In this document: piece after piece, positions 19,610 through 35,174 of the stretch
Layout of the letters: each line of letters begins with the position of its first letter
Position numbering within the stretch: the stretch's first letter is position 1
DNA from: Phycisphaerales bacterium
Lineage (GTDB): Bacteria > Planctomycetota > Phycisphaerae > Phycisphaerales > UBA1924
Assembly: GCA_029260555.1 (NCBI GenBank)
Contig: JAJDCZ010000003.1
Span: 124,001 to 188,000 of the forward strand
DNA: 64,000 nt
Direction: 5' to 3'
Translations under genes and position numbers: made by a program
Notes under the pieces: model-generated
The model's database searches: none
The model's input: only the letters and a program-made list of their open reading frames with translations
What the model was told of the DNA's origin: nothing

Positions 19610-19648
19610 CAGCCCCCCGTGTTTTCGAACGCGGGGGGCTGTCTTTTT
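19610..19648 (+). terminator. Strong rho-independent terminator
   Basis: A 14-bp near-perfect stem (CAGCCCCCCGTGTT at 19610-19623 with AACGCGGGGGGCTG at 19628-19641) with a TTCG loop, followed by TCTTTTTGT. Confidence 0.95.
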
Positions 19649-19750: not shown

Positions 19751-19779
19751 TTGTCAATAATGTTGAGGGGGGCTATAAT
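19751..19779 (+). promoter_or_regulatory. Sigma70-type promoter of the octaheme cytochrome operon
   Basis: TTGTCA at 19751-19756, a 17-nt spacer and a perfect TATAAT at 19774-19779. It lies about 50 bp before the GTG start of the tetraheme cytochrome gene and downstream of a strong terminator, so it fits as the operon promoter. A loose palindrome (ATATCTGGACATAT) lies near 19795-19809 in the leader and could bind a regulator; this is speculative. Confidence 0.7.
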
Positions 19780-19829
19780 CCGACCTTAATAAGTATATCT
19801 GGACATATTTTTCCGTAAAGAGGCGAGTT

Positions 19830-20579
19830 GTGGAACACGAATCGGGACGGGTTGAACAAGAGCGGGGTAAGGATGCGGCTGGGGGGCGTGGTTCAGGTAT
19901 AGAGGCAGAGGAGAGGGTCAAGATTTTTGGCTGGCTGGTGGGCCCGGGGTTTGTACTTTTGGCGTTGGGGATGGTGTTTGGGCTGTCCAGCGGCGATGTG
20001 CCTTCAGCAGAATCGCCTTCGGTGAGTGCTACAGCTTTAGTGGCAGGTCCATTGCGCGAGTCGCTGAAGGATCCGCCCATGACGGAGATTGGCGGGATCG
20101 AGCAGCGGTGTATTTCGTGTCATCAGTTGTTTGAGTCATTGTGGGACGGTTCAAAGCCATTGCGTCAGCATATGGATGTGCAGATTAAGCATGGGGTTGA
20201 TGGCAGTTGCTATGGGTGTCATAGCCGGGAGAACCGTGAGAAGCTAGAGCTCAAGGGTGGGGAGCTGGTTTCGTTTACTGAGGTTGCCAGGCTTTGTGGC
20301 GAGTGTCATGGGCCGGTGCTTAGAGATTGGCAGCGTGGTACGCATGGCAAGACGCTGGGTTATTGGGATGCGAATTTAGGGGAGGTTCGTCGGTTAGGTT
20401 GTACGGAATGTCACGATCCACATTCGCCGGCGTATGAGGGGATAATCCCATTGCCCGGGCCTCACACATTGCGGATGGGTGAACGGCTCAATGAGCATGG
20501 GGGAGAGTCAAACAGGAATCCACTGCGATACTGGCAGGAGAATAAAGGGCACAAGGCTGAGTCTGGAGGATCGCACTGA
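19830..20579 (+). CDS. Membrane-anchored tetraheme cytochrome c
   Basis: 249 aa, GTG start. One transmembrane helix at ~33-52 anchors a periplasmic domain with four CxxCH heme sites: CISCH (94-98), CYGCH (127-131), CGECH (156-160) and CTECH (191-195). It is the first gene behind a good promoter and overlaps the ferredoxin gene by 1 nt (TGATG). Its place beside ferredoxin and NrfD-like subunits suggests it relays electrons between the quinone module and the octaheme enzyme. It is not a NapC/NirT type by motif layout; I do not recognise a named family. Confidence 0.85.
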   Translation: MEHESGRVEQERGKDAAGGRGSGIEAEERVKIFGWLVGPGFVLLALGMVFGLSSGDVPSAESPSVSATALVAGPLRESLKDPPMTEIGGIEQRCISCHQLFESLWDGSKPLRQHMDVQIKHGVDGSCYGCHSRENREKLELKGGELVSFTEVARLCGECHGPVLRDWQRGTHGKTLGYWDANLGEVRRLGCTECHDPHSPAYEGIIPLPGPHTLRMGERLNEHGGESNRNPLRYWQENKGHKAESGGSH

Positions 20580-21586
20580 TGTCTCATCGGATCTATGAGG
20601 GTCATGGAGACCCGGTTTGTGAAACAAGACCCGGGCTGACGCGGCGAAGTTTCTTGAGGCGTGGGGTTGGTACTGCGGGTGGTCTTGCTGCGGTTGCGGC
20701 GGCGTTAAGTCCACTTCGAGATTTTGATGCGAGTGAGATGTCAGTCGCGGGATTCTTGCAGAAGCACTACAAGGAGATGGATGCGCAGGAGATGGAGGCG
20801 GCGCTTGATCGGATCCGTGAGCAGGTTGAGGCGAGGTATGAGGTTCGGCCTGAGATTCGAGACATAAAACCGATGGACGGGGTGGAGTTTGTATATGCAT
20901 TGAACTTGAGCAGGTGCATTGGTTGCCGCAAGTGTGTGCATGCGTGTGTTGCAGAGAACAATCAGAGTCGTGACCCGGAGATTCAATACATACGAGTGAT
21001 CGAGATGCCTCGGGGGACAACGGATGTTGAGCATGGCGATCATCATTATGAGCGGGCGACGGTTCCGGATGAAGATCATTATTACATGCCGGTGCAGTGT
21101 CATCAGTGTGCTAATCCGCCATGTGTAAAGGTGTGCCCGGTGGAGGCGACCTGGTCTGAGCCTGACGGGATTGTGGTGATTGATTACGACTGGTGTATTG
21201 GGTGTCGCTATTGCGAGGCGGCGTGTCCTTATTGGGCCAGGCGATTCAACTTTACTACGCCGAAGATTCCCAAGGACAAGCTCAATCCGAACATGAGTTA
21301 TTTATCGAATCGGCCTCGGTCTCAGGGGGTGATGGAGAAGTGTCATTTTTGTTTGCATCGGACACGACAGGGGAAAATGCCAGCGTGTCTGGAGATTTGC
21401 CCGACGGGTTCGAGGAAGTTTGGCAATGTGCTTGATCCCAATAGCGAGGTTTCGCAGATTTTACGAACCAAGCGGGTGTTTGTGTTGAAGGAGCAGGTTG
21501 GTACGCTTCCAAGGTTCTTTTATTACTACGACGAGCGAGATCCTATCTCCGGGTACTCTGACGAGGCCAAAGGGGGCCAGGGATGA
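20579..21586 (+). CDS. Tat-exported four-cluster [4Fe-4S] ferredoxin subunit (DsrO/NrfC-like)
   Basis: 335 aa. The N-terminus has a twin-arginine signal (TRRSFLRRG at 21-29) and a hydrophobic Ala/Gly stretch, so the folded iron-sulphur protein goes to the periplasm. Cys groups for four cubane clusters are visible: CIGCRKCVHAC (113-123), CHQCANPPCVKVCP (174-187), CIGCRYCEAACP (206-217) and CHFCLHRTRQGKMPACLEICP (255-275). This is the standard DmsB/PsrB/DsrO arrangement that partners NrfD-type membrane proteins. It overlaps the next gene by 4 bp (ATGA), so a stable two-subunit module is likely. Confidence 0.93.
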   Translation: MSHRIYEGHGDPVCETRPGLTRRSFLRRGVGTAGGLAAVAAALSPLRDFDASEMSVAGFLQKHYKEMDAQEMEAALDRIREQVEARYEVRPEIRDIKPMDGVEFVYALNLSRCIGCRKCVHACVAENNQSRDPEIQYIRVIEMPRGTTDVEHGDHHYERATVPDEDHYYMPVQCHQCANPPCVKVCPVEATWSEPDGIVVIDYDWCIGCRYCEAACPYWARRFNFTTPKIPKDKLNPNMSYLSNRPRSQGVMEKCHFCLHRTRQGKMPACLEICPTGSRKFGNVLDPNSEVSQILRTKRVFVLKEQVGTLPRFFYYYDERDPISGYSDEAKGGQG

Positions 21587-22848
21587 AAGAGTACGGCCGA
21601 TTTCTATTCCGGTGCTTCAGGTTGAGTTTTCACGGCGACTGGCGTTATTACACATGGATGTTCCTGCTTACTGCGGTGGCTTTGCTGGGGCTGAACGCAT
21701 ATGCCAAGCAGTTTGTGCATGGCCTGGCGACGACTGGCATGACGGATCAGGTGTCATGGGGATTGTATATTGCAAACTTCACCTATCTGGTGGGCGTGGC
21801 GGCAGCGGCGGTCATGCTGGTGATACCGGTGTATATCTACAAGAACGAAGAGTTGCACGACCTGGTGATATTTGGTGAACTTCTGGCGGTGGCAGCGATC
21901 GTCATGTGCCTTTTGTTTGTGACGGTGGACATGGGTCGCCCGGATCGGTTCGTGCATTTGTTTTTGCGGTTTAACTTTCCCATATCAATGCTGACATGGG
22001 ATGTGCTGGTGTTGAACGGGTATCTGTTGCTGAACATGCATATTTGCGGGTATCTGATCTATTGTGCATATTGCAGGCGGACACCGGCCAAGTGGTTTTA
22101 CATTCCATTTGTGTTTGTAGCAATTGTCTGGGCGCTGAGTATTCATACAGTGACAGCGTTTTTGTATTCAGGCTTGGGTGGTCGGCCGTTCTGGAACTCG
22201 GCGGTGATTGCACCGCGGTTTATTGCATCAGCGTTTGCTGCGGGACCTGCGTTGATCATATTGACGCTACAGGTCTTGCGGTGGGCAACGCCTTATCCGG
22301 TGCCTGACAAGGCGATCAATACGCTGAAATCGATTGTGACGGTTGCTTTGAGCATCAACATGTTTTTGCTGATCTCTGAAGTGTTTACGGAGTTTTACAC
22401 ACAATCTTCGCATGTGGTATCGGCGCAATATTTGTTCTTTGGGTTGAAGGGGTATCACGCGCTGGTGCCTTGGATCTGGACAGCGGTGGGGTTGAATGTA
22501 TTGGCATTGGCGGTGCTGTTTACGCCATTGAATCGCCGGTTGATGTTTTTGAACATTGCTTGCGTGGCGTTGATTATTGGCATCTGGATTGAGAAGGGGA
22601 TGGGTTTGATTGTGCCGGCATTTATACCTACGCCTCTGGGTGAGATTGTTGAATATGTCCCGACGATGAATGAGATTCTTATCAGCCTGGGAATATGGGC
22701 TTTTGGTTTGTTGATCTACACGATATTCGTGCGGATAACGGTTCCTGTGCTGATGGGGGAAATTGCGATAGATACGGTATATCCCCTGGGCTCTGCCAAG
22801 CGTGTAGCACCGCAGCCCAGTGAGACGAAAGGAAAATATGATGCGTAG
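21583..22848 (+). CDS. NrfD/DsrP-like polytopic membrane subunit
   Basis: 421 aa with about ten hydrophobic helices and no heme motif. The sequence follows the NrfD/PsrC/DsrP superfamily: WGLYIANFTYLVGVAAAAVM near the start, VDMGRPDRF in the middle, PISMLTWDVLVLNGYLLLN and IHTVTAFLYSGLGGRPFWNSAVIAPRF. These proteins hold a quinone site and exchange electrons with a periplasmic ferredoxin subunit. Coupled at both ends: ATGA with the ferredoxin gene, and an 11-bp overlap with the octaheme gene. The reaction direction (quinol oxidation or quinone reduction) cannot be read from sequence. Confidence 0.93.
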   Translation: MKEYGRFLFRCFRLSFHGDWRYYTWMFLLTAVALLGLNAYAKQFVHGLATTGMTDQVSWGLYIANFTYLVGVAAAAVMLVIPVYIYKNEELHDLVIFGELLAVAAIVMCLLFVTVDMGRPDRFVHLFLRFNFPISMLTWDVLVLNGYLLLNMHICGYLIYCAYCRRTPAKWFYIPFVFVAIVWALSIHTVTAFLYSGLGGRPFWNSAVIAPRFIASAFAAGPALIILTLQVLRWATPYPVPDKAINTLKSIVTVALSINMFLLISEVFTEFYTQSSHVVSAQYLFFGLKGYHALVPWIWTAVGLNVLALAVLFTPLNRRLMFLNIACVALIIGIWIEKGMGLIVPAFIPTPLGEIVEYVPTMNEILISLGIWAFGLLIYTIFVRITVPVLMGEIAIDTVYPLGSAKRVAPQPSETKGKYDA

Positions 22849-24289
22849 GCATGCTGTTGTGATGATGTGCGGAGTTGTGATGTCTTTGTTGGCACCAGCG
22901 GCACTGGGGCAGGCGATTGGTCTTAGAGAGATCAGTGATGCAACGAAAGAGTGCATTGACTGTCACAAGAAGTCATCTCGAGGAATTTACCAGCAATGGG
23001 GTGATTCCAAACACTTTCGAGCCAATGTTGGTTGTTTTGAATGCCATACTGCACAGCGTGATGAGCCTGATGCATTTAAACATTATGGCCAGACGATTGC
23101 AATTCTTGTGACACCTGGTGATTGTGCGCGTTGTCACTCCAAGGAAGTTGAAGAGTTTGCAGGTTCGCACCATTCCAAGGCGGGTCGCATTCTTGGATCG
23201 CTGGACAATGTGCTGGCGGAAGTGGTCGAAGGCAACAAAGGTATGAAGACCATGGGCTTTCCTGGTGGCGTGTCAGCGGCAGCGGTTAATGGCTGCTGGC
23301 AGTGCCATGGATCACAGGTGAAGGTACTTGCTGGTGGGAAGCTGGACCCAGCGACATATCCCAACAGCGGGATTGGTCGGATTAATCCTGACGGGACAGA
23401 AGGCTCGTGCAACGCGTGTCATACAAGGCATGATTTTTCGGTTGCGCAGGCGCGTCATCCTGATACCTGCGGTAAGTGCCACCTTGGACCTGATCATCCT
23501 CAGAAGGAGATTTATGAGGAATCCAAGCATGGTATTAACTTTTTCTCAAAGATCGACAAGATGAATCTTGATAGCCCCAAGTGGGTTGTTGGTGAAGATT
23601 ACTGGGCAGCACCGACTTGCGCGACTTGCCATATGTCAGCCACGCCTCAGCAGGATGTGACGCATGATGTAGGGATGCGTATCAGCTGGAACAATCGGCC
23701 TGTCATGTCGATCAGGCCTGAGGTATCAGATGCGAAGATGGGGCTGCCGGGTGCGGATGTGCCTTGGCAGGTTCGGCGTGAGAACATGCGTGATGTGTGT
23801 CTTAACTGCCACGAGGAGCAGTGGGTTGACAACTTCTATGTTCAGTACGATGCTTTGATTGAGCTTTACAATACGAAGTTTGCTGCTCCGGGCAAGGCTT
23901 TGATGGCAGCAGCCAAGCCGTTGCGCAAGCAGGTAGCATTTGGCAACAAGATCGACTGGGTCTGGTTTGAGTTGTGGCATCACGAGGGGCGGCGTGCGCG
24001 TCATGGTGCTGCGATGATGGCTCCGGATTACACGCACTGGCATGGAACATATGAGATTGCCCAGACATTTTATACAGAGTTTGTTCCAGAGCTGGAAGAG
24101 TTGATTGAGAAAGGGCGTGAATCGGGCGAGTCTGCTCAGATCGAGGCTGCCGAGAAGCTCGAGTCACTGCTGCATGAAGTGTTGAACTCTGATGATCACA
24201 AGTGGTTTGTCGGAAAGATGGACCCAGCAGAGGCTGCGGCTCGCAAGAAGGCTGCCAGTGAGTTCAAGAATCGTTACAAAGGGAAGTAA
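22838..24289 (+). CDS. Octaheme cytochrome c of the hydroxylamine oxidoreductase family
   Basis: 483 aa from ATG 22838 (AAAGGA 5-6 nt upstream; ATG 22841 is equally possible). A signal peptide (~1-25, ALGQA) directs it to the periplasm. Eight CxxCH sites: 39, 66, 96, 153, 191, 211, 261 and 321. The C-terminal helical part contains FELWHHEGRRARHGAAMM and PDYTHWHG, characteristic of HAO-family octaheme proteins. Classical HAO oxidises hydroxylamine and has a Tyr crosslinked to the heme 4 (P460) of a neighbouring subunit; reductive relatives lack it and reduce nitrite or hydroxylamine. Whether Tyr398 or Tyr405 here corresponds to that Tyr needs alignment. Co-operonic quinone-module genes fit either direction; I lean to a reductive role. 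Confidence 0.9.
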   Translation: MMRRHAVVMMCGVVMSLLAPAALGQAIGLREISDATKECIDCHKKSSRGIYQQWGDSKHFRANVGCFECHTAQRDEPDAFKHYGQTIAILVTPGDCARCHSKEVEEFAGSHHSKAGRILGSLDNVLAEVVEGNKGMKTMGFPGGVSAAAVNGCWQCHGSQVKVLAGGKLDPATYPNSGIGRINPDGTEGSCNACHTRHDFSVAQARHPDTCGKCHLGPDHPQKEIYEESKHGINFFSKIDKMNLDSPKWVVGEDYWAAPTCATCHMSATPQQDVTHDVGMRISWNNRPVMSIRPEVSDAKMGLPGADVPWQVRRENMRDVCLNCHEEQWVDNFYVQYDALIELYNTKFAAPGKALMAAAKPLRKQVAFGNKIDWVWFELWHHEGRRARHGAAMMAPDYTHWHGTYEIAQTFYTEFVPELEELIEKGRESGESAQIEAAEKLESLLHEVLNSDDHKWFVGKMDPAEAAARKKAASEFKNRYKGK

Positions 24290-24346: not shown

Positions 24347-24811
24347 ATGGAAGGCAAGGTTGTGGAAAGAAAGCTTACAGAACAAGATGGCAAGTTGGCA
24401 TTGCGAGATCATGTGATCGCAAAGGCTGCTGCTGCAAGGCTGGATCGCGGCATGTATATCGACGCTGAGGCGATCATCAAATTGCTGGATGATCGCGAGG
24501 CAGTGCGATATCCGACGGGTGTTCGTTTTGATGCTGAGCCTCTGGAGTCTGGAGAGTTTGCGTGGTTGATGCCTCTGGGTGATACACCTGCAGAAGGATT
24601 CTGTTTGTTTATTCATCCCTGGTTTGAGACTCAGCCTGATGCATGGCCATTGATCATTCCATATTACATTCCATGTGTCAATTATGGAGAGATTGTTTCT
24701 GAGGAAGAGTGTGAGTTTTATGGGGCCTCTCTTTTGGGGCTTGAACGAGAAAATTATTACCAAGCTTTGTGTGAACTTGCAGACAGCATACCGGATGTAT
24801 CCGATATATAA
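24347..24811 (+). CDS. Small soluble protein of unknown function in the octaheme operon
   Basis: 154 aa from ATG 24347, with no strong Shine-Dalgarno site. No signal peptide, membrane helix or heme motif. The sequence is acidic, with an N-terminal helical part (DHVIAKAAAARLDRGMYIDAEAIIKLLDD) and a hydrophobic middle (FAWLMPLGDT, FCLFIHPWFE, WPLIIPYYIPCVNYGEIV). I do not recognise the family. It lies 57 bp after the octaheme gene with no terminator between, so it is probably co-transcribed. A cytoplasmic assembly or accessory role is conceivable but not shown. Confidence 0.65.
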   Translation: MEGKVVERKLTEQDGKLALRDHVIAKAAAARLDRGMYIDAEAIIKLLDDREAVRYPTGVRFDAEPLESGEFAWLMPLGDTPAEGFCLFIHPWFETQPDAWPLIIPYYIPCVNYGEIVSEEECEFYGASLLGLERENYYQALCELADSIPDVSDI

Positions 24812-25076: not shown

Positions 25077-26570
25077 ATGTCACGCATAGAAAAACAGACC
25101 ATTGATACACAGCATTGTGTACTATCAGAAAGATCAAGGGGGCATTTTGCCGGCACTTGTCTGATGGTGTCTACAGCCGTGGCGGTTCTGTTTTCATCCA
25201 GTGTCGCCCACGCACTGCCTGTGGGGGATGACAATGTCAGACCCAAGTACAAGCTTCTCAGGTATGAAGAAAACTGGTCGAACTTTGATGGATCGGCTGG
25301 GGATGATTACTGGGATCCGATCAAGCATGTGGATCTTAACGATGACGGGTCATACTGGGTGGGGTTTGGCGGCGAGATGCGTTTTCGTGGCGAAGCATGG
25401 GAGAACTTTGGTTTTTCCGATGCACCAAGCCGGGATGATTCGTTTGCGCTTGCAAGACTATTGATTTATAGTGATTTTCACTTTGGTGATCGGTTGAGAT
25501 TCTACTTCGAGGGCAAGAGTGCTCTATCCAGCGATCGTGATTTACCTGGCGGTAAGCGTGGGTTGGATGAGGACACGCTTGATCTGCAAAATGGCTTTGC
25601 TGAATACACCTTTGACATTAAGGATGATATGACACTGACGGCGCGTCTTGGCCGCCAGGAGTTGAGCTTTGGAAAGCAGCGGCTGGTGAGTCCATTGCCC
25701 TGGGCCAACACCAAGCGGACATGGGATGCTGCGAAGTTGATTTTGCGTTTTGATCGTTGGCGCATCGATGGCTTTGCCAGTCGGTATGCTGCGGTGCAGA
25801 AGCATCAGTTTAATGACTGGAGGCCTGGGCCGAATTTTTATGGCGTGTATGCAGCGGGTAAGGTTGGTCCCAAGGATAAACCTTATGATCTGGATTTGTA
25901 CTGGTTGGGGCTTGATAAAAGAATGGGAGCGTTCAACGGGAGTGCTGGCGAGGAAGATCGCCATACGATCGGAGCACGCTTCGGGGGCAAGATTGCAGAA
26001 TCAAATTTCGATTTTGATCTGGAAGGGGCATATCAGTTTGGTGAAGTAGGGAGTGCGGATATCAGTGCTTTTGCCTTTGCCAGCCAGGTGGGGTATACCT
26101 TTACGGACCCTGACTGGAAACCCCGTCTTTATGTCGGGTTTGACTACGCCAGTGGTGATGACAAAGCTGGCGATGGAGATGTCGGAACATTCAACCAGTT
26201 ATTCCCGCTGGGTCATGCATACTACGGGTATATGGATTTTGTGGGTCGGCAGAACAGTGTAGATTTGTCAACAGGTATTTCATTCAAGCCTCACAAGAAA
26301 ATTAAAGTTAAGGCTGATGGACATTTCTTCTGGCGAGCAGATACTGATGATGCAATGTACCACGCGGGCGGGGGTGTGGTTCGTGCAGGTGCACTGAGTA
26401 ATGAATCTGAGGTCGGCCAGGAGCTGGATATAACGGTGGCGTACAAGGTTGATCAGCATATGTCAGTTGTTGGTGGCTACAGCCATTTCTTTGCGGGTGA
26501 TTTCCTCAAGGAATCAGGCACGAACGCAGATATGGACTGGTTTTACTTCCAGGTGTTGTACAAGTTCTGA
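25077..26570 (+). CDS. Alginate-export (AlgE-like) family outer-membrane porin
   Basis: 497 aa; ATG 25077 is preceded by GGAG at 6 nt. A TTG at 25029 is an in-frame alternative. The signal peptide cleaves near VAHA-L (residue 46). The mature part is rich in alternating aromatic beta-strands: MRFRGEAWENFGF, LRFYFEGKSAL, ARLGRQELSFGKQRLVSPLPW, RWRIDGFASRY, ending with a terminal Phe (VLYKF), the usual outer-membrane barrel signature. The fold matches the Alginate_exp domain, whose members are often anion-selective general porins. Next to an octaheme N-oxide-type enzyme it could admit nitrite or nitrate; that is inference. Confidence 0.8.
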   Translation: MSRIEKQTIDTQHCVLSERSRGHFAGTCLMVSTAVAVLFSSSVAHALPVGDDNVRPKYKLLRYEENWSNFDGSAGDDYWDPIKHVDLNDDGSYWVGFGGEMRFRGEAWENFGFSDAPSRDDSFALARLLIYSDFHFGDRLRFYFEGKSALSSDRDLPGGKRGLDEDTLDLQNGFAEYTFDIKDDMTLTARLGRQELSFGKQRLVSPLPWANTKRTWDAAKLILRFDRWRIDGFASRYAAVQKHQFNDWRPGPNFYGVYAAGKVGPKDKPYDLDLYWLGLDKRMGAFNGSAGEEDRHTIGARFGGKIAESNFDFDLEGAYQFGEVGSADISAFAFASQVGYTFTDPDWKPRLYVGFDYASGDDKAGDGDVGTFNQLFPLGHAYYGYMDFVGRQNSVDLSTGISFKPHKKIKVKADGHFFWRADTDDAMYHAGGGVVRAGALSNESEVGQELDITVAYKVDQHMSVVGGYSHFFAGDFLKESGTNADMDWFYFQVLYKF

Positions 26571-26675: not shown

Positions 26676-27029
26676 TTATTTCTGGATGCTGCGCACGAAG
26701 GTGACAATGTCTTTGATCTGATCATCGGTGAGAGTGGGGACGCCACCTCTTGGAGGCATGGCAGCGGTGTCTCCAACGGGGAGTCGGCCTTGGATAATGA
26801 AGGCGAGGAGATCTTCATCGGACTTGGTTTTGACAAACTCACTGATGGTGAGGTCTTTACCGAGGTTTGGCAAGCCGGTGCCTGCCAGGCCGTGGCAAGT
26901 AGCGCAGATGGTGCGGAACTGGATTCCACCTCGTGCTGCAGCCTGGGCTGCGGGATCTTCCTTGCCACATCCGGCAAGGCTGAGGGAGCAGGTGGCGAGC
27001 AATGATGCAGTCAAGAGCTTTGTGTACAT
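26676..27029 (-). CDS. Class I monoheme cytochrome c, lipoprotein
   Basis: 117 aa from ATG 27029 (MYTKLLTASLL). A lipobox LAGC gives lipidated Cys21. One heme site CATCH (42-46) in the pattern FRTICATCHGLAGTGLPNLG, and the axial Met91 in AAMPPRGG, mark a small class I cytochrome c of the cbb3/CccA-like style. It is convergent with the porin gene. It may pass electrons between periplasmic enzymes and an oxidase; its link to the octaheme operon is by position only. Confidence 0.9.
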   Translation of the reverse strand: MYTKLLTASLLATCSLSLAGCGKEDPAAQAAARGGIQFRTICATCHGLAGTGLPNLGKDLTISEFVKTKSDEDLLAFIIQGRLPVGDTAAMPPRGGVPTLTDDQIKDIVTFVRSIQK

Positions 27030-27336
27030 ATCAAGGTGTCCTGTTAAATGTTTTTGGTTTGTCAGATAAATAGGGGGAGTCATTGTAGACAGGAGTATTT
27101 TGTATTCCAGAGGCCATCATCTGAAAAACTGTGGACCTATAAAAGGGTTCTGCTCGTGTAAAGAGAATCTTTGACGACGCGATGGGCAGGATAATGTGAA
27201 GCTGATCTCAATAGTAGTTGGCATAAGTTAGGGAACAGGAAGATCTGAGAAAAGATGTGGTGTGAGGGAAGTTAGGGAATAAAAGAGATGGGATGGTGTG
27301 TTGACTGAGTGTTGAACTTGGCCGAGAATAAGACTG
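27030..27336. other. Divergent intergenic region
   Basis: 307 bp between the cytochrome c start (minus) and the Cys-rich protein start (plus). No gene, RNA or clear promoter boxes recognised. A TTGACG at about 27170 lacks a well-spaced -10. Confidence 0.4.
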
Positions 27337-27750: not shown

Positions 27751-27863
27751 CAAGCAAAACAAAGAGATACTCTGCGCGCTGACCTTGAGGGGGGTGGATG
27801 CGTGTTGGGGTTTGCGTGCGCCTGCAGGTTTGCTTGTTGATATTAAGAACCAGGAGCGATGTC

Positions 27864-29336
27864 ATGTTTTTGACGAATCGTCGAGTGCTGATTGGTAGTG
27901 GGTTGTTGTTGAGTGGTGTGGTGCTTTGGGGCTGTCGAGGGCCGTTTGATGGAACGGCACGGATGTATACGGGCAGCGAAGGGGTGCCGAGGTTGGGCGG
28001 GGAGGGTGACTGGCCGCGCTCGGTGTATCGGATGGGCGAAGACGAGGGTGGGGTGGGTGGGGTGAGTGAGTCGCTGGGGTTGCTGGTGCTTGATGAGTCA
28101 GCATCGGTGGATGACTACCTGCATTATGCAGCGATCAACAACCCGGGACTTGAAGCAGCGTTTCAGCGCTGGCTTGCAGAGGCTGAGCGGGTGGTGCAGG
28201 TGGGGGCGCTGCCTGATCCAAAGGTGACCTTTGGTATATTTGTGAATGAAGTGGAGACGCGGACCGGGCCTCAGCAAGGCCGAGTTGGGATCGCGCAACG
28301 ATTTCCCTGGTTTGGCAAGCTCAAGGATCGTGAAGATGCAGCAGCGTTCCGGGCCAATGCTGCGTGGGAACACTATCAGGCGGTTCGGCTTGAACTTTAC
28401 GAGCGGGTGACGATGGCGATTTATGAGCTGGCGTATGTGCAGGAGGCGCAGGCTCTGACAAGCGATAATCTTGAGTTGCTGAAACAGTTTGAAGGGGTGG
28501 TACGGGCACGGTATCGCGTGTCGGCTGCGAAGCATCCTGATCTGATTCGGGTGCAAGTTGAGCTTGGCAAGCTTGAGGATCGCCTGGCACAGCTCATGGA
28601 TCTTGAAGGGCCAGCAGCGGCGCGGGTGAATCGGGCGCTAAATCGTCCGGTGTGGACACCTGTGATCATGCCGAGGCTGAGCGAACAGCGGTATGTGGGA
28701 ACGATTCAGGCGTTGAGCGAGGAGGCGAAGAAGCACAATCCAGAGCTGCGCAAGCTTGCTGAGCAAGTTGATAGTGCGCGTGCGCAGACGGAGGTTGCCC
28801 GGAAGGACGGCTACCCGGATGTGACGATGGGTTTGACCACGATTATCACTGATGAAGCGATGGACTCGACGATTGCAGAGAGTGGCGATGATCCGGTTTT
28901 GCTTTCTTTGTCGATGAATGTGCCTTGGGATCGAAAGAAGTACGACGCGAAGGTTCGAGAGTCGATGGCCAGAAGGCTTGCGATTGTGCATGATCGAACA
29001 GAGCGAGCCAATCGACTTGACGAGCAACTCAAAGTTGCGTTGTTTAAACATGAAGATGGGATACGGCGCGTGGGTCTTTATTCAGGCACGCTGCTGCCCA
29101 AGGCGAGGGAATCTTTGGAAGCATCGTTTGCAGCGTATCGAGGTGGGGAATCAGACTTTTTTGATCTGCTTGATACCGAGCAGACGCTCTTGTCGTTTGA
29201 GTTGGCACTGGTGCGTGCGAGGACAGATCGTGCGGTTGCCTTGGCTCAGCTGGAGCGGCTGACAGGTGTGAGGCTGGGCGAGCAGACTACAACAGAGACA
29301 AATGACGAAGCTGAGCAGGAAGGGAATCAACAATGA
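27864..29336 (+). CDS. TolC-family outer-membrane efflux lipoprotein (CusC-like)
   Basis: 490 aa from ATG 27864 (CAGGAG 7 nt upstream). The signal peptide has a lipobox VVLWGC (Cys24). The remainder carries the duplicated OEP helical pattern: YLHYAAINNPGLEAAFQRWLAEAERV and PDPKVTFGIF in the first half, LSEEAKKHNPELRKLAEQV and DGYPDVTMGL in the second. It forms the outer-membrane duct of a tripartite metal pump. The stop overlaps the cusB start (ATGA). The C-terminal tail is short and acidic. Confidence 0.88.
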   Translation: MFLTNRRVLIGSGLLLSGVVLWGCRGPFDGTARMYTGSEGVPRLGGEGDWPRSVYRMGEDEGGVGGVSESLGLLVLDESASVDDYLHYAAINNPGLEAAFQRWLAEAERVVQVGALPDPKVTFGIFVNEVETRTGPQQGRVGIAQRFPWFGKLKDREDAAAFRANAAWEHYQAVRLELYERVTMAIYELAYVQEAQALTSDNLELLKQFEGVVRARYRVSAAKHPDLIRVQVELGKLEDRLAQLMDLEGPAAARVNRALNRPVWTPVIMPRLSEQRYVGTIQALSEEAKKHNPELRKLAEQVDSARAQTEVARKDGYPDVTMGLTTIITDEAMDSTIAESGDDPVLLSLSMNVPWDRKKYDAKVRESMARRLAIVHDRTERANRLDEQLKVALFKHEDGIRRVGLYSGTLLPKARESLEASFAAYRGGESDFFDLLDTEQTLLSFELALVRARTDRAVALAQLERLTGVRLGEQTTTETNDEAEQEGNQQ

Positions 29337-31357
29337 GTCAATTACAAAGCAGGATTAAAAAATGGGGTCTGTGGATGTGGAAGCGGCTTTCAGTTGCAAT
29401 CGCAATGGCGTTTATCCTGCTGGCCCTCTTTGTCGGCATTCGTGTGGGGCATGGGTTGGGTGGCGGGGGCAAAGTTGTGGTGCAAGGGGGGGATACTGAG
29501 GGGGCTGTGGTAGAGAAGCAGCAGTTTTATACTTGCTCAATGCATCCGCAGATTCGGATGACGGACCCCAACGGCAAGTGTCCGATCTGTTTCATGGATC
29601 TGATTCCGGTAAAGGATTCAGCATCGACGGGTTCGCAGGATGAACGAAAGCTTCGTCTCGGCGAAAATGCAATTCGGCTTGCTGAAGTGGAGACAACGGT
29701 TGTGAGTCGATTTGTGCCGACGGCTGAGGTGCGGCTCTATGGCACGGTGAGCTATGACCAGACGCGAGTGGCACGGATCAATGCGTATTTTCCCGGGCGG
29801 CTTGACAGGCTTTATGTTGATTATGTGGGGATCCCGATCCAGAGGGGAGATCACATCGCTGAGATCTACAGCCCTGAGCTTCTGGCAGCATTTGAAGAGT
29901 TGCGTCAGGCCAAGCAGGCGGTGGAGTTGAACCCGTCTGCCAGTGATTTGATTCGATCTACGACGGTGCAGACTCTTGATGCAGCGCGTGAGAGGCTAAG
30001 GCTTTTGGGGATCACGCCTGAGCAGATTGTGCAGGTTGAATCTGACGGGAAGCTGCCGGATACTTTCACGGTTTTCAGTCCCATGAAAGGCGTGGTGACG
30101 GAGCGCGCGGTTCGTGAGGGTGATTATGTCAAGACGGGGGATGAGATTGTTACGGTGGCGGATTTGTCAAGGCTCTGGCTAGAGCTTGAAGCGTATGAGT
30201 CAGACTTGCCGCTGCTTCGGTGGGGTCAGGATGTTGAGTTTACGGTTCATGCTCAGCCGGGCAGGGTGTTTCATGGGCGGATTTCGTTTATTGAGCCATT
30301 GGTTGATTCGATGACACGGGCTGCGAATGTACGAGTGGCGGTGGACAATGCTGAGGGTTTGCTCAAGCCTGGGATGTTTGCCTCAACGGTTGTGTATGCG
30401 CGGGTCACTGAGCAAGGCGTTGTGGGGGACATGGATCTTGCAAACAAGTGGGTGTGTTTGATGCATCCTGAGGAAGTGTATGAGGAGGCAGGTGAGTGCC
30501 GGGTGTGTGGCATGAATCTGGTTCAGGCGGATGTATTGTTTGAGAGCAATGTTGTTGATGAAGGGGCAAAGCCTTTGGTGGTCCCCCGCAGCGCGGTGTT
30601 GAAGACGGGGCGTCGAGCGGTGGTGTATGTGAAGCTCGAAGAAGATGGTCAGCCAGTGTTTGAGGGAAGGGAAGTGATGCTGGGTGTACGGGCGGGTGAT
30701 TTTTACATTGTGGTGCAAGGGCTTGAAGAAGGCGAAAAAGTTGTTACCAACGGTGCGTTCAAGATTGACAGTGCCATGCAAATTCTTGCCAAGCCCAGCA
30801 TGATGATGCCTCAGGGCGGCGGTAGTGGTGGCGGGCATGACCATGGCAACATGGGAGGTAAAAGTGCCAGGGTTGCCGAGAAGGACACTGGCGTGGATTT
30901 TGCTTCAAGGCTCAGCGATGTCTATGAGACTTACTTGGGCATTCAAGAGGCGCTGGCTGCAGACGATCTGGCAAAGTATCAGGAGTTGACTGTGACCATG
31001 GATGAGGCTGTGGGAGCGGTCAAGATGGCGGGGCTTGATAATCCGTCGATGGGTCTCTGGCACAATGCGATGAAGCTGCTCAAAGAGCAGCAAACTGAGG
31101 ATATCGAAGATGCCCGGGTTCGATTCCGCGGAATGTCCGATGCGATGCTGGATCTGACGAAGAAGTTTGGAAGGGGCGATGGTGATACCTGGTATGTCGC
31201 GCATTGTCCGATGGCGTTTGATTTTGAAGGTGCGGACTGGATTCAGCGTCAAAAAGAAATCTCGAATCCTTACATGGGGAGCGAGATGCCTCGCTGTGGT
31301 GAGATTCGTCAGGAGCTGAAATCGGCCAATGCTGGGAAGGGAGCTTCTGATGAGTGA
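29333..31357 (+). CDS. cusB: CusB-like periplasmic adaptor with two metal-binding domains and a DUF3347-like tail
   Basis: 674 aa. One N-terminal membrane helix (~18-37). Residues 66-93 form a heavy-metal-binding domain (YTCSMHPQI...CPICFMDL). The HlyD adaptor core follows (YFPGRLDRLYVDYVG, YSPELLAAFEELRQA, VFSPMKGVVTERAVREGDYV). A second heavy-metal-binding motif (CLMHPEE...CRVCGMNL) is inserted at ~372-400, then a His/Gly linker (GGGHDHGNMGG, ~495-510). Residues ~520-665 resemble DUF3347 (LSDVYETYLGIQEALAADD, VAHCPMAF, NPYMGSEMPRCGEI). Typical target metals of such pumps are Cu(I)/Ag(I). Two metal domains plus a fused tail make this an elaborate adaptor. Confidence 0.9.
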   Translation: MSQLQSRIKKWGLWMWKRLSVAIAMAFILLALFVGIRVGHGLGGGGKVVVQGGDTEGAVVEKQQFYTCSMHPQIRMTDPNGKCPICFMDLIPVKDSASTGSQDERKLRLGENAIRLAEVETTVVSRFVPTAEVRLYGTVSYDQTRVARINAYFPGRLDRLYVDYVGIPIQRGDHIAEIYSPELLAAFEELRQAKQAVELNPSASDLIRSTTVQTLDAARERLRLLGITPEQIVQVESDGKLPDTFTVFSPMKGVVTERAVREGDYVKTGDEIVTVADLSRLWLELEAYESDLPLLRWGQDVEFTVHAQPGRVFHGRISFIEPLVDSMTRAANVRVAVDNAEGLLKPGMFASTVVYARVTEQGVVGDMDLANKWVCLMHPEEVYEEAGECRVCGMNLVQADVLFESNVVDEGAKPLVVPRSAVLKTGRRAVVYVKLEEDGQPVFEGREVMLGVRAGDFYIVVQGLEEGEKVVTNGAFKIDSAMQILAKPSMMMPQGGGSGGGHDHGNMGGKSARVAEKDTGVDFASRLSDVYETYLGIQEALAADDLAKYQELTVTMDEAVGAVKMAGLDNPSMGLWHNAMKLLKEQQTEDIEDARVRFRGMSDAMLDLTKKFGRGDGDTWYVAHCPMAFDFEGADWIQRQKEISNPYMGSEMPRCGEIRQELKSANAGKGASDE

Positions 31358-34300
31358 CCAACAAGCACCGGCCGAGTTTCGCGGGTTGATACCGAGTCTG
31401 ATCAGATTCTGTCTCGAGCAGAAGCTGGTGGTGTTGATGGCAACGCTGGGAGTGATGGCGTGGGGGGTGATGGTGGCGCCGTTTGACTGGAGTCTGATGG
31501 GTTTGCCTAGGAATCCTGTGGCTGTGGACGCGATTCCCGATATTGGTGAAAACCAGCAGGTGGTCTTCACGCGATGGCCGGGGCGTAGCCCGCAGGACAT
31601 TGATGACCAGATCAGCTATCCGTTGACGGTGGCGCTTCTGGGTGTGCCTGGCGTGAAGGAAGTGCGGAGTTATTCGATTTTCGGGATCAGCTCGATCTAT
31701 GTAATTTTTAACGATGATGTCGAGTTTTACTGGTCCCGGACACGCATTCTTGAGAAGCTCAACAGCCTGCCTGCGGGGACGCTTCCAAATGAGGTTGCGC
31801 CGACGCTGGGTCCTGACGCAACGGCGCTAGGGCAGGTGTACTGGTACACGCTTGAAGGGCGTGATGTAGAGGGTAATTCCACGGGTGGGTGGGATCTGCA
31901 GGAACTTCGATCGATCCAGGATTTTATTGTAAGTTACCAGTTGGCAGCGGTGGAGGGTGTATCAGAGGTCGCTGGGATTGGTGGATTTGTGCGCGAGTAT
32001 CAGGTGGATGTTGATCCTGATGCGATGCGGGCAGCAGGGGTGAGTCTTTCGCAGGTCATCAAGGCGGTTCGCAGCTCCAACAAGGATGTGGGTGCGCGCA
32101 CGGTCGATGTTAATAGCGTGGAGTATATTGTCCGCGGGCTGGGGTATTTGACCAGTATTGAGGATCTGGAGAAGACCGCGGTCGCTGTGCATAACAATAT
32201 TCCCATTCTCATCAAAGACATTGCAACGGTTTCATTTGGGCCGGCGCTTCGGCGTGGAGCGCTTGACAAGGGTGGCATAGAGGCTGTGGGCGGTGTTGTG
32301 GTCGTGCGGTATGGCGATAATCCCATGGCGGTGATTCAGAGGCTCAAGGAGCAGATAAGCAAGATCAGCATGGGGCTTCCCAGCAAGGTGCTGGCGGACG
32401 GGACCGAGAGCCGTGTTACGATTGTGCCGTTTTATGACCGGACGAAGTTGATAAATGAAACGCTGGGTACGCTGGATTCAGCGATCTCTCAGCAGATCAT
32501 TGTGACGATCATCGTCGTAGTGATCATGTTGATGCACCTTCGGTCGAGTTTACTCATTGGTGCGATGCTTCCGATTGCTGTGCTGGGCACATTTATTGGG
32601 ATGAAGTTTTTTCATGTTGATGCCAACATCGTTGCGCTCTCGGGGATTGCAATTGCGGTGGGCACAATTGTGGATATGGGGATTGTGCTCAGCGAGAACA
32701 TATTGCGCAGGTTGGAACAGGCGGCGCCGGGCGAATCGGCCTTGGAGGTGGTGCATCGCGCCAGTTGTGAAGTTGGAAGCGCGGTTCTGACAGCTGTGGC
32801 GACAACGATTGTAAGCTTTTTGCCTGTGTTTACCATGGAAGCAGCAGAGGGCAAGTTGTTTCGCCCATTGGCGTACACCAAGTCGTTTGCACTTTTGGCA
32901 TCAATTATAATTGCACTGACACTCATTCCGCCTGCAGCCCATGTGCTATACACATTCAAGATCAGATCCGGGTTTGTCAAGGGCATCTTTTCAATCGTGC
33001 TGATGATCGTCGGCGTGCTGATTGCAATCAAGGTGCAATGGATCGTTGGTGTGGTTCTGGCAGCATTCGGGCTGTACTACCTGGTGCAACCCTGGCTTGG
33101 GAAAGTTGTGGAAAAGATTTGCCACTTGCTGACCAGTGCGGTGGCGCTGCTGATCGTTTTGATCGTGCTGGCCAAGTCTTGGGAGCCCATAGGCTCGGAA
33201 GCGGGCGTGTTGGGCAATTCGATGTTTGTGGTGGTGCTGGTTGGCGGGCTTCTTGGATTGATGTATGTGTTCCAGCTGCTTTACCCGGGGATGTTGAGGT
33301 GGGGGCTCAAGCACAAGTTGGTGATGTTGTCTCCGGCGATGCTGGTGGTGGTGCTGGGTGTTACAGCATGGCTCGGGTTTGAGCGTACATTTGGATGGCT
33401 GCCAGAATCGATTCGCAAAGATGCTCAGGTTGTCAAGCTGACCCATGCGTTTCCCGGATTAGGCAGCGAGTTTATGCCTGCGCTTGATGAGGGTGAGTTT
33501 TTGTATATGCCGACGACGATGCCTCACGCTTCGATTGGTGAGGCTCTGGATGTGATATCAATTCTGGATCTGGCGATTGAGTCGATCCCGGAAGTTGAAT
33601 ATGCGGTGGGCAAAATTGGCAGGGCTGAGAGTCCGCTGGACCCGGCACCGATTTCCATGGTCGAGACGATCATTGAATACAAGAGTGAATACATTACAGA
33701 CAAGAGTGGCCATCGACTTGCGTTTGAAGTTGAAGAAGATGGGCAGTTTGTGCGTGATGATAATGGTGATCTGATTGAGGATGAAAGCGGCAAGCCGTTT
33801 CGTCAGTGGCGAGATCACATTGAGACTCCTGATGATATCTGGCGGGAGATTGTGGAAGCTGCGGAGATTCCAGGGACGACCTCTGCGCCCAAGCTTCAGC
33901 CTATTCAAACCAGAATTGTGATGCTGCAGACGGGGTTTCGTGCGCCGATTGGCATGAAGGTGTATGGGCCTGATCTGGAAACGATTGAGGCGTTTGGGCT
34001 GGAGTTGGAGAAGGCGCTAAAGCAGGTGCCTTCGGTGCCACCGGAAGCTGTGTTTGCAGATCGCATCGTGGGCAAGCCTTACATGGAGTTCAAGATCGAC
34101 CGGGAGAAGATTGCGCGGTATGGCATTTCGGTGATGGATGTTCAGGAAGTGATCGAAGTGGCGATCGGTGGTCGGCCTTTGACGATGACGGTTGAAGGCC
34201 GGGATCGATATCCGGTACGGGTTCGTTACATGCGAGAGCTTCGTGATGATCTGGAGACGCTGGGCAAGATTCTTGTTCCCACGCCATCAGGTGCGCAGGT

Positions 34301-35174
34301 TCCACTGAGCGAGCTTAGTGATATTCAATATCGCCGTGGCCCTCAGGTGATCAAGAGCGAAGACACTTTCCTGGTGTCGTATGTATTGTTTGACACCATG
34401 CCCGGGCATGCTGAAGTTGATGTGGTTCGTGATGTTCGCGAGCACCTTGATCGCCTGATTAAAGCGGGTGATCTTGTGGTTCCAGCGGGTGTGAGTTATG
34501 TATTCTCGGGCTCCTATGAGAATCAGGTTCGAGCTGCCAAACGGATGAGTGTGGTGTTGCCGCTGGCACTCGGTGTGATCTTCCTGATTCTTCAGCTGCA
34601 GTTTAAACGATTTTCAACTACGATGATTGTGTTCAGCGGTGTTTTTGCAGCTTGGGGGGGCGGATTTTTGATGCTGTGGCTTTATGGGCAGGACTGGTTT
34701 CTTGATGTATCCATGTTTGGTGTGGATTTGCGAGAGCTGTTTGCGATTCGGCCTTACAATCTGAGTGTGGCGGTGTGGGTTGGGTTTCTTGCGTTGTTTG
34801 GGATTGCAACAGACAACGGCGTGGTGATGGCGACGCGCATTGACCAGTCTATGGATGAACTCAAGCCAACAACCGTTGAGGGCGTGCGAGAAGCGGTGCT
34901 GGTGGGTGCAAAGCTCAGAATTCGTGCTGCTTTGATGACCTCGGCAACAACGATCCTGGCGCTTTTGCCGGTGTTGACATCGACTGGTAGAGGGTCTGAT
35001 GTCATGGTGCCGATGGCGATTCCATCCTTTGGAGGCATGTCGGTTGCGTTGTTGACATTGTTTGTTGTGCCGATTTTGTATTCATGGGTCCATGAGTTTC
35101 ATGTGAGATTTGGAGGCAAGGGGGGTGGGGGTGAGCCGCCAGCTTCAGATGAGCTGCGTACCCTCAGTGGATGA
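31350..35174 (+). CDS. cusA: CusA/CzcA-family heavy-metal RND efflux pump
   Basis: 1274 aa; ATG 31350 (AAGGGAG 6 nt upstream) overlaps cusB by 8 bp. Inner-membrane proton-driven pump of the tripartite system. RND features: the N-terminal helix, DAIPDIGENQQVVFTRWPGRSPQDIDDQISYPL, LRSSLLIGAMLPIAVLGTFIG, and the proton-relay region VGTIVDMGIVLSENILRRLEQA (TM4). Compared with E. coli CusA (~1050 aa) it carries a hydrophobic insertion of about four extra helices around residues 530-680, and a charged periplasmic insertion near 775-840. Metal specificity (Cu/Ag versus Zn/Co) is not certain; the cusB metal domains favour Cu/Ag. Confidence 0.92.
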   Translation: MSDQQAPAEFRGLIPSLIRFCLEQKLVVLMATLGVMAWGVMVAPFDWSLMGLPRNPVAVDAIPDIGENQQVVFTRWPGRSPQDIDDQISYPLTVALLGVPGVKEVRSYSIFGISSIYVIFNDDVEFYWSRTRILEKLNSLPAGTLPNEVAPTLGPDATALGQVYWYTLEGRDVEGNSTGGWDLQELRSIQDFIVSYQLAAVEGVSEVAGIGGFVREYQVDVDPDAMRAAGVSLSQVIKAVRSSNKDVGARTVDVNSVEYIVRGLGYLTSIEDLEKTAVAVHNNIPILIKDIATVSFGPALRRGALDKGGIEAVGGVVVVRYGDNPMAVIQRLKEQISKISMGLPSKVLADGTESRVTIVPFYDRTKLINETLGTLDSAISQQIIVTIIVVVIMLMHLRSSLLIGAMLPIAVLGTFIGMKFFHVDANIVALSGIAIAVGTIVDMGIVLSENILRRLEQAAPGESALEVVHRASCEVGSAVLTAVATTIVSFLPVFTMEAAEGKLFRPLAYTKSFALLASIIIALTLIPPAAHVLYTFKIRSGFVKGIFSIVLMIVGVLIAIKVQWIVGVVLAAFGLYYLVQPWLGKVVEKICHLLTSAVALLIVLIVLAKSWEPIGSEAGVLGNSMFVVVLVGGLLGLMYVFQLLYPGMLRWGLKHKLVMLSPAMLVVVLGVTAWLGFERTFGWLPESIRKDAQVVKLTHAFPGLGSEFMPALDEGEFLYMPTTMPHASIGEALDVISILDLAIESIPEVEYAVGKIGRAESPLDPAPISMVETIIEYKSEYITDKSGHRLAFEVEEDGQFVRDDNGDLIEDESGKPFRQWRDHIETPDDIWREIVEAAEIPGTTSAPKLQPIQTRIVMLQTGFRAPIGMKVYGPDLETIEAFGLELEKALKQVPSVPPEAVFADRIVGKPYMEFKIDREKIARYGISVMDVQEVIEVAIGGRPLTMTVEGRDRYPVRVRYMRELRDDLETLGKILVPTPSGAQVPLSELSDIQYRRGPQVIKSEDTFLVSYVLFDTMPGHAEVDVVRDVREHLDRLIKAGDLVVPAGVSYVFSGSYENQVRAAKRMSVVLPLALGVIFLILQLQFKRFSTTMIVFSGVFAAWGGGFLMLWLYGQDWFLDVSMFGVDLRELFAIRPYNLSVAVWVGFLALFGIATDNGVVMATRIDQSMDELKPTTVEGVREAVLVGAKLRIRAALMTSATTILALLPVLTSTGRGSDVMVPMAIPSFGGMSVALLTLFVVPILYSWVHEFHVRFGGKGGGGEPPASDELRTLSG

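Follow-up and report, generated by a model that had tools for sequence, protein, structure and literature searches.

An HAO-family octaheme cytochrome in a conserved operon with an NrfD-type quinol module: a proposed nitrite reductase in Planctomycetota

Introduction

Thermosulfurimonas dismutans and Dissulfuribacter thermophilus are thermophilic sulfur bacteria that act as ammonifiers without NrfA. Beside genes for periplasmic nitrate reductase (Nap), they carry a four-gene locus for an HAO-homologous multiheme cytochrome, an NrfD-family protein, a 4Fe-4S protein and a second membrane cytochrome. In T. dismutans this cluster lies next to napMADGH (PMC4911364), and a role in nitrite reduction or in sulfur metabolism has been suggested for the locus (PMC5276818). 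Here, we analyze an operon with the same product list in a Phycisphaerales bacterium: a tetraheme cytochrome (C4), a ferredoxin (FeS) exported by the twin-arginine translocation (Tat) system, an NrfD/DsrP-type membrane protein and an octaheme cytochrome of the hydroxylamine oxidoreductase (HAO) superfamily. The operon lies in a stretch of 64,000 nucleotides (GenBank assembly GCA_029260555.1, contig JAJDCZ010000003.1, positions 124,001 to 188,000 of the forward strand), which we call the window. In our view it probably encodes a periplasm-facing menaquinol:nitrite reductase, likely ammonium-forming, that resembles NrfABCD but has as its catalytic subunit an HAO-family protein without the cross-linking Tyr.

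The likeness to the T. dismutans and D. thermophilus locus is one of published description rather than of compared sequences. Moreover, adjacency to Nap is seen in relatives of our operon and not in the source genome, and the T. dismutans proteins are without signal peptides (PMC4911364), whereas here the octaheme and the ferredoxin carry export signals.

Several better-studied systems share parts of this architecture. NrfABCD of the Escherichia coli type combines quinol oxidation by NrfD, a four-cluster NrfC, a multiheme relay and a multiheme nitrite reductase, but there the reductase is the pentaheme NrfA and the relay is NrfB, whereas here we find an HAO-family octaheme, an anchored tetraheme and an NrfD protein of the DsrP type. 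MccACD also joins an octaheme enzyme to iron-sulfur and NrfD-type subunits (PMC8076601); MccA, however, is a sulfite reductase, while our octaheme matches HAO, stands in a nitrate-reduction context and is accompanied by an extra tetraheme. In the Epsilonproteobacterial HAO/reverse-HURM system, a Tyr-less HAO-type octaheme occurs with Nap and is a proposed nitrite reductase, but that system relies on Hcp and a small membrane tetraheme of the CycB/NapC type (PMC5276818), where the source genome has the NrfD module and gave no Hcp match. The DsrJOP part of DsrMKJOP likewise comprises a DsrP-type membrane protein, a DsrO-type ferredoxin and a small multiheme cytochrome, although DsrJ is a triheme rather than a tetraheme protein, and our operon is without DsrMK in a genome without a DsrA match.

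The original prediction for this DNA knew of no characterized complex with the same subunit set. The set is indeed uncharacterized, but it has already been noticed in the literature, since the T. dismutans locus has been reported and NrfABCD and MccACD show the same architecture.

A four-gene order conserved across relatives

The four genes occupy positions 19830-24289 of the forward strand, with overlapping ends, in the order C4, ferredoxin, NrfD/DsrP and octaheme (Table 1). This is the arrangement that had been predicted, and motifs and models agree with the subunit kinds then named (tetraheme, four-cluster Tat ferredoxin, NrfD/DsrP protein and HAO-type octaheme).

A scan of GTDB contigs returned at least 585 encoding stretches, and the best 80 were kept as loci (numbered with the prefix L). 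Synteny could be judged in 66 of these, 14 more being cut by contig ends. The same four genes stand in the same order in 54 of the 66, and so a chance arrangement is ruled out and the order is not unique to the source genome; NrfD also adjoins the octaheme in 6 of the 14 truncated loci. Most of the loci are labeled Planctomycetota, with others from Verrucomicrobiota, Myxococcota, Hydrogenedentota, Calditrichota and gammaproteobacterial metagenome-assembled genomes (MAGs), and it should be remembered that single MAG labels among them may be wrong.

The octaheme and its active site

The octaheme has a signal peptide, exactly eight CxxCH motifs and no further hydrophobic segment; its start is likely ATG 22841 (or 22838) rather than GTG 22820. 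It scores 89 bits against PF13447 (cut-off 21.9) and is the sole PF13447 protein found in the source genome. Its best match in the PDB is IhOCC of Ignicoccus (4qo5), followed by the anammox (6h5l) and Nitrosomonas (1fgj) HAOs. Judged by its eight c-heme motifs and its HAO homology, it belongs to the HAO superfamily. The octaheme MccA has one unusual, long heme-binding motif; all eight sites of the window protein are CxxCH, and exactly eight such sites occur in each of the 82 family members compared. An AlphaFold2 model of the octaheme had a predicted local distance difference test (pLDDT) score of 52 and was not used.

For the active site, family members were aligned with sequences from PDB chains, with Nitrosomonas europaea HAO as the reference. 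The cross-linking Tyr467 of that enzyme aligns with Trp400 of the window octaheme, which settles the check that had been proposed: the Tyr is absent. The column holds Trp in 81/82 family members (one was not scored) and also in 6h5l, a Tyr-less anammox enzyme; 1fgj, 6t5e and a number of anammox paralogs retain Tyr. Another gap placement brings His401 into the column, never Tyr, in agreement with the His reported at the cross-link site of reductive HAOs (PMC12758564); the closest Tyr lies at position 397. The counterpart of Asp267-His268 in N. europaea HAO is Asp218-His219 here, a pair kept in 82/82 members. The window protein is without the heme 4 cross-linking Tyr of oxidative HAO/HDH enzymes, and its combination of absent Tyr and retained Asp-His is that of reductive Tyr-less HAO-like proteins, as in 6h5l. 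Tyr-less HAOs have been reported as reductive (PMC12758564).

In a tree of octahemes, one half holds N. europaea HAO with 6h5l and those anammox paralogs that bear the Tyr; the other holds the window family, IhOCC, anammox HAO5A and other Tyr-less types, although IhOCC differs in two places, with Phe in the Tyr467 column and Asp-Val instead of Asp-His. The enzyme 6h5l, of the anammox HAOr clade, groups with the octahemes of L107, L109 and L112 and not with that of the window. The deep order of this tree is uncertain because several branches are long.

Should the enzyme nevertheless be read as an oxidase that takes electrons from hydroxylamine and delivers them to quinone? Membership of the HAO superfamily and the conserved Asp-His pair would fit, as would the occurrence of NrfD-type subunits in quinone-reducing and quinol-oxidizing complexes alike (PMC8076601). 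We consider this highly unlikely, given that the cross-linking Tyr is missing from every scored member of the family and that the genes stand in the context of nitrate reductase rather than of ammonia oxidation. A search of the source genome for AMO had no match, but the same search found none in any control genome either and is not counted as absence.

The octahemes of six Oslofjord (OFTM) MAGs (L022, L029, L033, L038, L043 and L048) are also without the cross-linking Tyr. Genes annotated as hao in Oslofjord MAGs have been discussed as possible hydrazine oxidizers (PMC10732223); if those are the genes compared here, the absence of the Tyr applies to them.

Linkage to periplasmic nitrate reductase

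NapA is present in 20 of the 80 loci, directly downstream in several, and L105 holds a single run of C4, FeS, NrfD, octaheme, a fifth gene (DUF154, see below), NapA, a tetraheme cytochrome, NapG and NapH. The NapA of L041 passes the NapA equivalog model (905 bits, cut-off 904). The source genome has, on its contig C37, a NapA with 71% identity to that of L105, a tetraheme cytochrome, NapG and NapH, and then genes reading as moaA and moeA. In L075, L078 and L081, octahemes without the NrfD module are likewise accompanied by Nap genes, and the octaheme of L076 lies near a type II beta subunit of the dimethyl sulfoxide reductase family and a chaperone.

Co-occurrence was assessed in 294 genomes of the phylum, 17 of them with a close octaheme and 61 in a wider octaheme set. 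A strong NapA match was found in 11/17 close-octaheme genomes against 42/277 others (Fisher p 1.3e-5), and NrfA was rarer in the wider set (7/61 against 70/233, p 0.003), in tests that are uncorrected for phylogeny and that use E-value cut-offs set after the lists had been seen. None of the 11 genomes with both a close octaheme and a strong NapA match has NrfA, and the three close-octaheme genomes that have NrfA are all without a strong NapA match. By coordinates, octaheme and NapA lie within ~5 kb of each other in 9 of the 11 genomes having both.

Searches of the source genome for NrfA (PF02335), NirS/cytochrome cd1, Hcp and DsrA gave no match, and for the copper nitrite reductase NirK sub-threshold matches only; the assembly is 93% complete, so these absences are not absolute. 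Among six sampled genomes from its own family, NrfA occurs in three and the octaheme in none.

A different end point is conceivable, in which the octaheme takes nitrite only to nitric oxide (NO), or detoxifies NO or hydroxylamine, and no respiratory ammonium is made. The Tyr-less anammox HAOr reportedly reduces nitrite to NO (PMC12758564), and an octaheme 39% identical to ours, on the Desulfosarcina ovata plasmid NZ_AP021877.1 (L123), stands beside genes for a NapC/NirT cytochrome, NorR and nitric oxide reductase. However, HAOr and the window octaheme fall in different clades, and genomes with octaheme and Nap but without NrfA would be left with their ammonium step unfilled; we regard this alternative as unlikely.

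A quinol module that may be specialized for the octaheme

C4 has four CxxCH motifs and a single N-terminal hydrophobic segment. It is not of the NapC/NirT/NrfH family (TIGR03153, 21.7 bits against a cut-off of 134), and a comparison with the PDB gave no useful match. The 16 Cys of the ferredoxin fall into four cluster motifs, and the protein also carries a twin-arginine motif, TRRSFLRR; its top NCBIfam model is DsrO, at 172 bits and thus under the cut-off of 200. The membrane protein scores 429 bits against the NCBIfam DsrP model NF045798, above its cut-off of 350. A PF03916 score of 139 bits, together with the four-cluster ferredoxin, identifies an NrfC/NrfD-type quinol module, the closest kind being DsrO/DsrP. 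On these model scores the module resembles DsrJOP, with the triheme protein apparently replaced by a tetraheme one.

The quinone-linked role in nitrogen or sulfur metabolism first put forward fits on the nitrogen side, with the Nap context, and is unsupported on the sulfur side. In favor of a complex like DsrJOP or MccACD with sulfite, tetrathionate or polysulfide as its substrate, one can point to these DsrP and DsrO matches and to MccACD itself, where an octaheme is coupled to a module of the same kind. With no DsrA match in the source genome, Nap genes as the neighbors across relatives and an octaheme that matches HAO proteins, we find such a role most improbable.

More serious is the question of whether the module belongs to the octaheme at all. 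Where contigs allow it to be seen, NrfD proteins at least 70% identical to that of the window lie directly before an octaheme. A second group, 54-62% identical and found in many Planctomycetota, is mostly encoded 2-4 kb from napA, accompanied by homologs of C4 and FeS but by no octaheme; in Planctomycetota loci L125-L134 (e.g., L126:4210-10029 and L130:7271-13485), C4-FeS-NrfD stands beside napA, often divergently, and the octaheme is absent. The three genes might then encode a general quinol:cytochrome oxidoreductase belonging to the Nap pathway, which would supply NapA and further periplasmic acceptors, with the octaheme as a client rather than a subunit. Octahemes of the same family without the module, and wider relatives beside Rieske/cytochrome b or NapC genes, would suit this explanation. 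Yet when 41 NrfD proteins are placed in a tree, a single branch (support 97/96) separates those linked to an octaheme from the Nap-only and other modules, a split that recurs in 98% of bootstrap trees and suggests specialization of the octaheme-linked module. Conservation extends to the gene order and to the overlaps with the octaheme, and the source genome has separate NapG and NapH for Nap. We therefore judge the client explanation somewhat improbable. The NrfD groups and the tree together indicate that the module can exist unpaired and that a specialized branch of it travels with the octaheme.

The Tyr-less octahemes of L087, L089 and L093 are the ones beside Rieske/cytochrome b genes, one of them with 11-heme and 13-heme cytochromes as well.

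The proposed electron route

The mechanism that we propose draws on the known roles of NrfD/NrfC-type subunits (PMC8076601, PMC12285233) and on the Tyr-less HAO type (PMC12758564). Menaquinol would be oxidized at the NrfD/DsrP subunit, and electrons would pass through the four clusters of the exported ferredoxin and the four hemes of C4 to the octaheme, the four proteins presumably forming a physical complex. Nitrite, supplied by Nap, would be reduced at heme 4, beside Asp218-His219. Of the two substrates first proposed, we retain nitrite and set aside hydroxylamine oxidation, as the absence of the Tyr and the Nap context favor nitrite reduction. We consider ammonium the most likely product, since the source genome yielded no other enzyme for the nitrite or hydroxylamine steps; NO or hydroxylamine might also be released.

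Several observations weigh against the reading of the operon as a nitrite reductase fed by its own module. Twelve of the 66 judgeable octaheme loci are without the upstream module despite at least 3.4 kb of upstream sequence. The modules beside NapA without an octaheme could mean that the module primarily feeds Nap. In the source genome the Nap genes and the operon are on separate contigs, and a strong NapA match is missing from 6 of the 17 genomes with a close octaheme. The incompleteness of the assembly and the form of the Fisher tests, both given above, count on the same side.

A bolder version we advance only tentatively, as a possibility that may well prove wrong. It would have the operon encode a dedicated, electrogenic and ammonium-forming menaquinol:nitrite supercomplex in which an HAO-fold octaheme replaces NrfA and a specialized DsrJOP-like module feeds it and conserves energy. 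NapA-positive Planctomycetota without NrfA, together with some members of other phyla, would turn nitrite into ammonium chiefly by this route.

The fifth gene and the surroundings of the operon

The original prediction had missed a conserved fifth gene, DUF154 (Table 1). Homologs occur in 47/82 loci (the window and 46 further ones), mostly 3' of the octaheme, and in relatives the gene lies between octaheme and NapA. The protein has no match in Pfam or NCBIfam. Its AlphaFold2 model, built with 34 homologs, has a pLDDT of 95.7, and Foldseek returned nothing at E < 0.001. A second fold comparison placed ImmA/IrrE-type zincins on top (IrrE, Z 8.4; PprI, 8.1; a Mycobacterium tuberculosis regulator, 8.6), with Z-scores that barely exceed what unrelated models commonly give. 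There is no HExxH motif in the sequence, for which reason a zincin relative of this kind would perhaps be non-catalytic; a regulatory or assembly role is our guess.

The near-consensus promoter originally claimed does match the consensus well and stands behind a strong terminator. Promoter-like sites are, however, no more frequent in the region than in shuffled sequence (5 found against 5.5 expected), and for this reason we call the promoter plausible and claim no more for it. The outer-membrane porin downstream is a possible but unproven associate of the operon.

Table 1. Features of the operon region, in window coordinates
Feature	Position	Strand	Remarks
Intrinsic terminator of preceding gene	19610..19641	+	14-pair stem, T run
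Candidate sigma-70 promoter, TTGTCA-N17-TATAAT	19751..19779	+	11/12 consensus bases; no excess over shuffles
C4, membrane-anchored tetraheme c-type cytochrome	19830..20579	+	GTG start, 4 CxxCH
Tat-exported ferredoxin subunit, DsrO/NrfC type	20579..21586	+	Four [4Fe-4S] motifs
NrfD/DsrP-type integral membrane protein	21583..22848	+	NF045798 DsrP over cut-off
Octaheme cytochrome c, HAO superfamily, proposed nitrite reductase	22841..24289	+	8 CxxCH, PF13447
DUF154, conserved 154-amino-acid protein	24347..24811	+	No signal peptide; predicted fold
Outer-membrane porin	25077..26570	+	PF13372 Alginate_exp; neighbor in 14 loci

Upstream of C4, palindromes like those of FNR/CRP are seen in L019, L039, L058, L068 and L079, for example TTGATCTAGATCAA and TTGATCTGCATCAA. 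A scan for FNR boxes there found 9-10 of 10 bases in 6/51 relatives, against 1/51 for shuffled sequence. The same scan found none upstream of C4 in the window and so supports no claim for the source genome.

A 13-heme cytochrome gene stands directly before the operon in four relatives (L035, L059, L061 and L065), and another (L102:18573-19898) is found on contig C37 of the source genome, ~7 kb from napH. Further along the window, genes at 27798-35174 read like a CusCBA-type metal efflux system, and a single-heme cytochrome gene lies near them on the opposite strand (26676-27083); both are apparently unrelated to the operon.

Significance

Many planctomycete genomes bear Nap and are without NrfA. 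The operon is a concrete candidate for their missing nitrite step, and it makes their ammonification testable. We would also advise care with existing annotations: in such genomes, hao, which is read as hydroxylamine or hydrazine oxidation, probably denotes a reductase, and DsrP need not imply sulfur metabolism. Finally, with three kinds of quinol module found around octahemes of this superfamily (NrfD/FeS/C4, Rieske/cytochrome b and NapC), the exchange of modules around one type of catalytic cytochrome can be studied.

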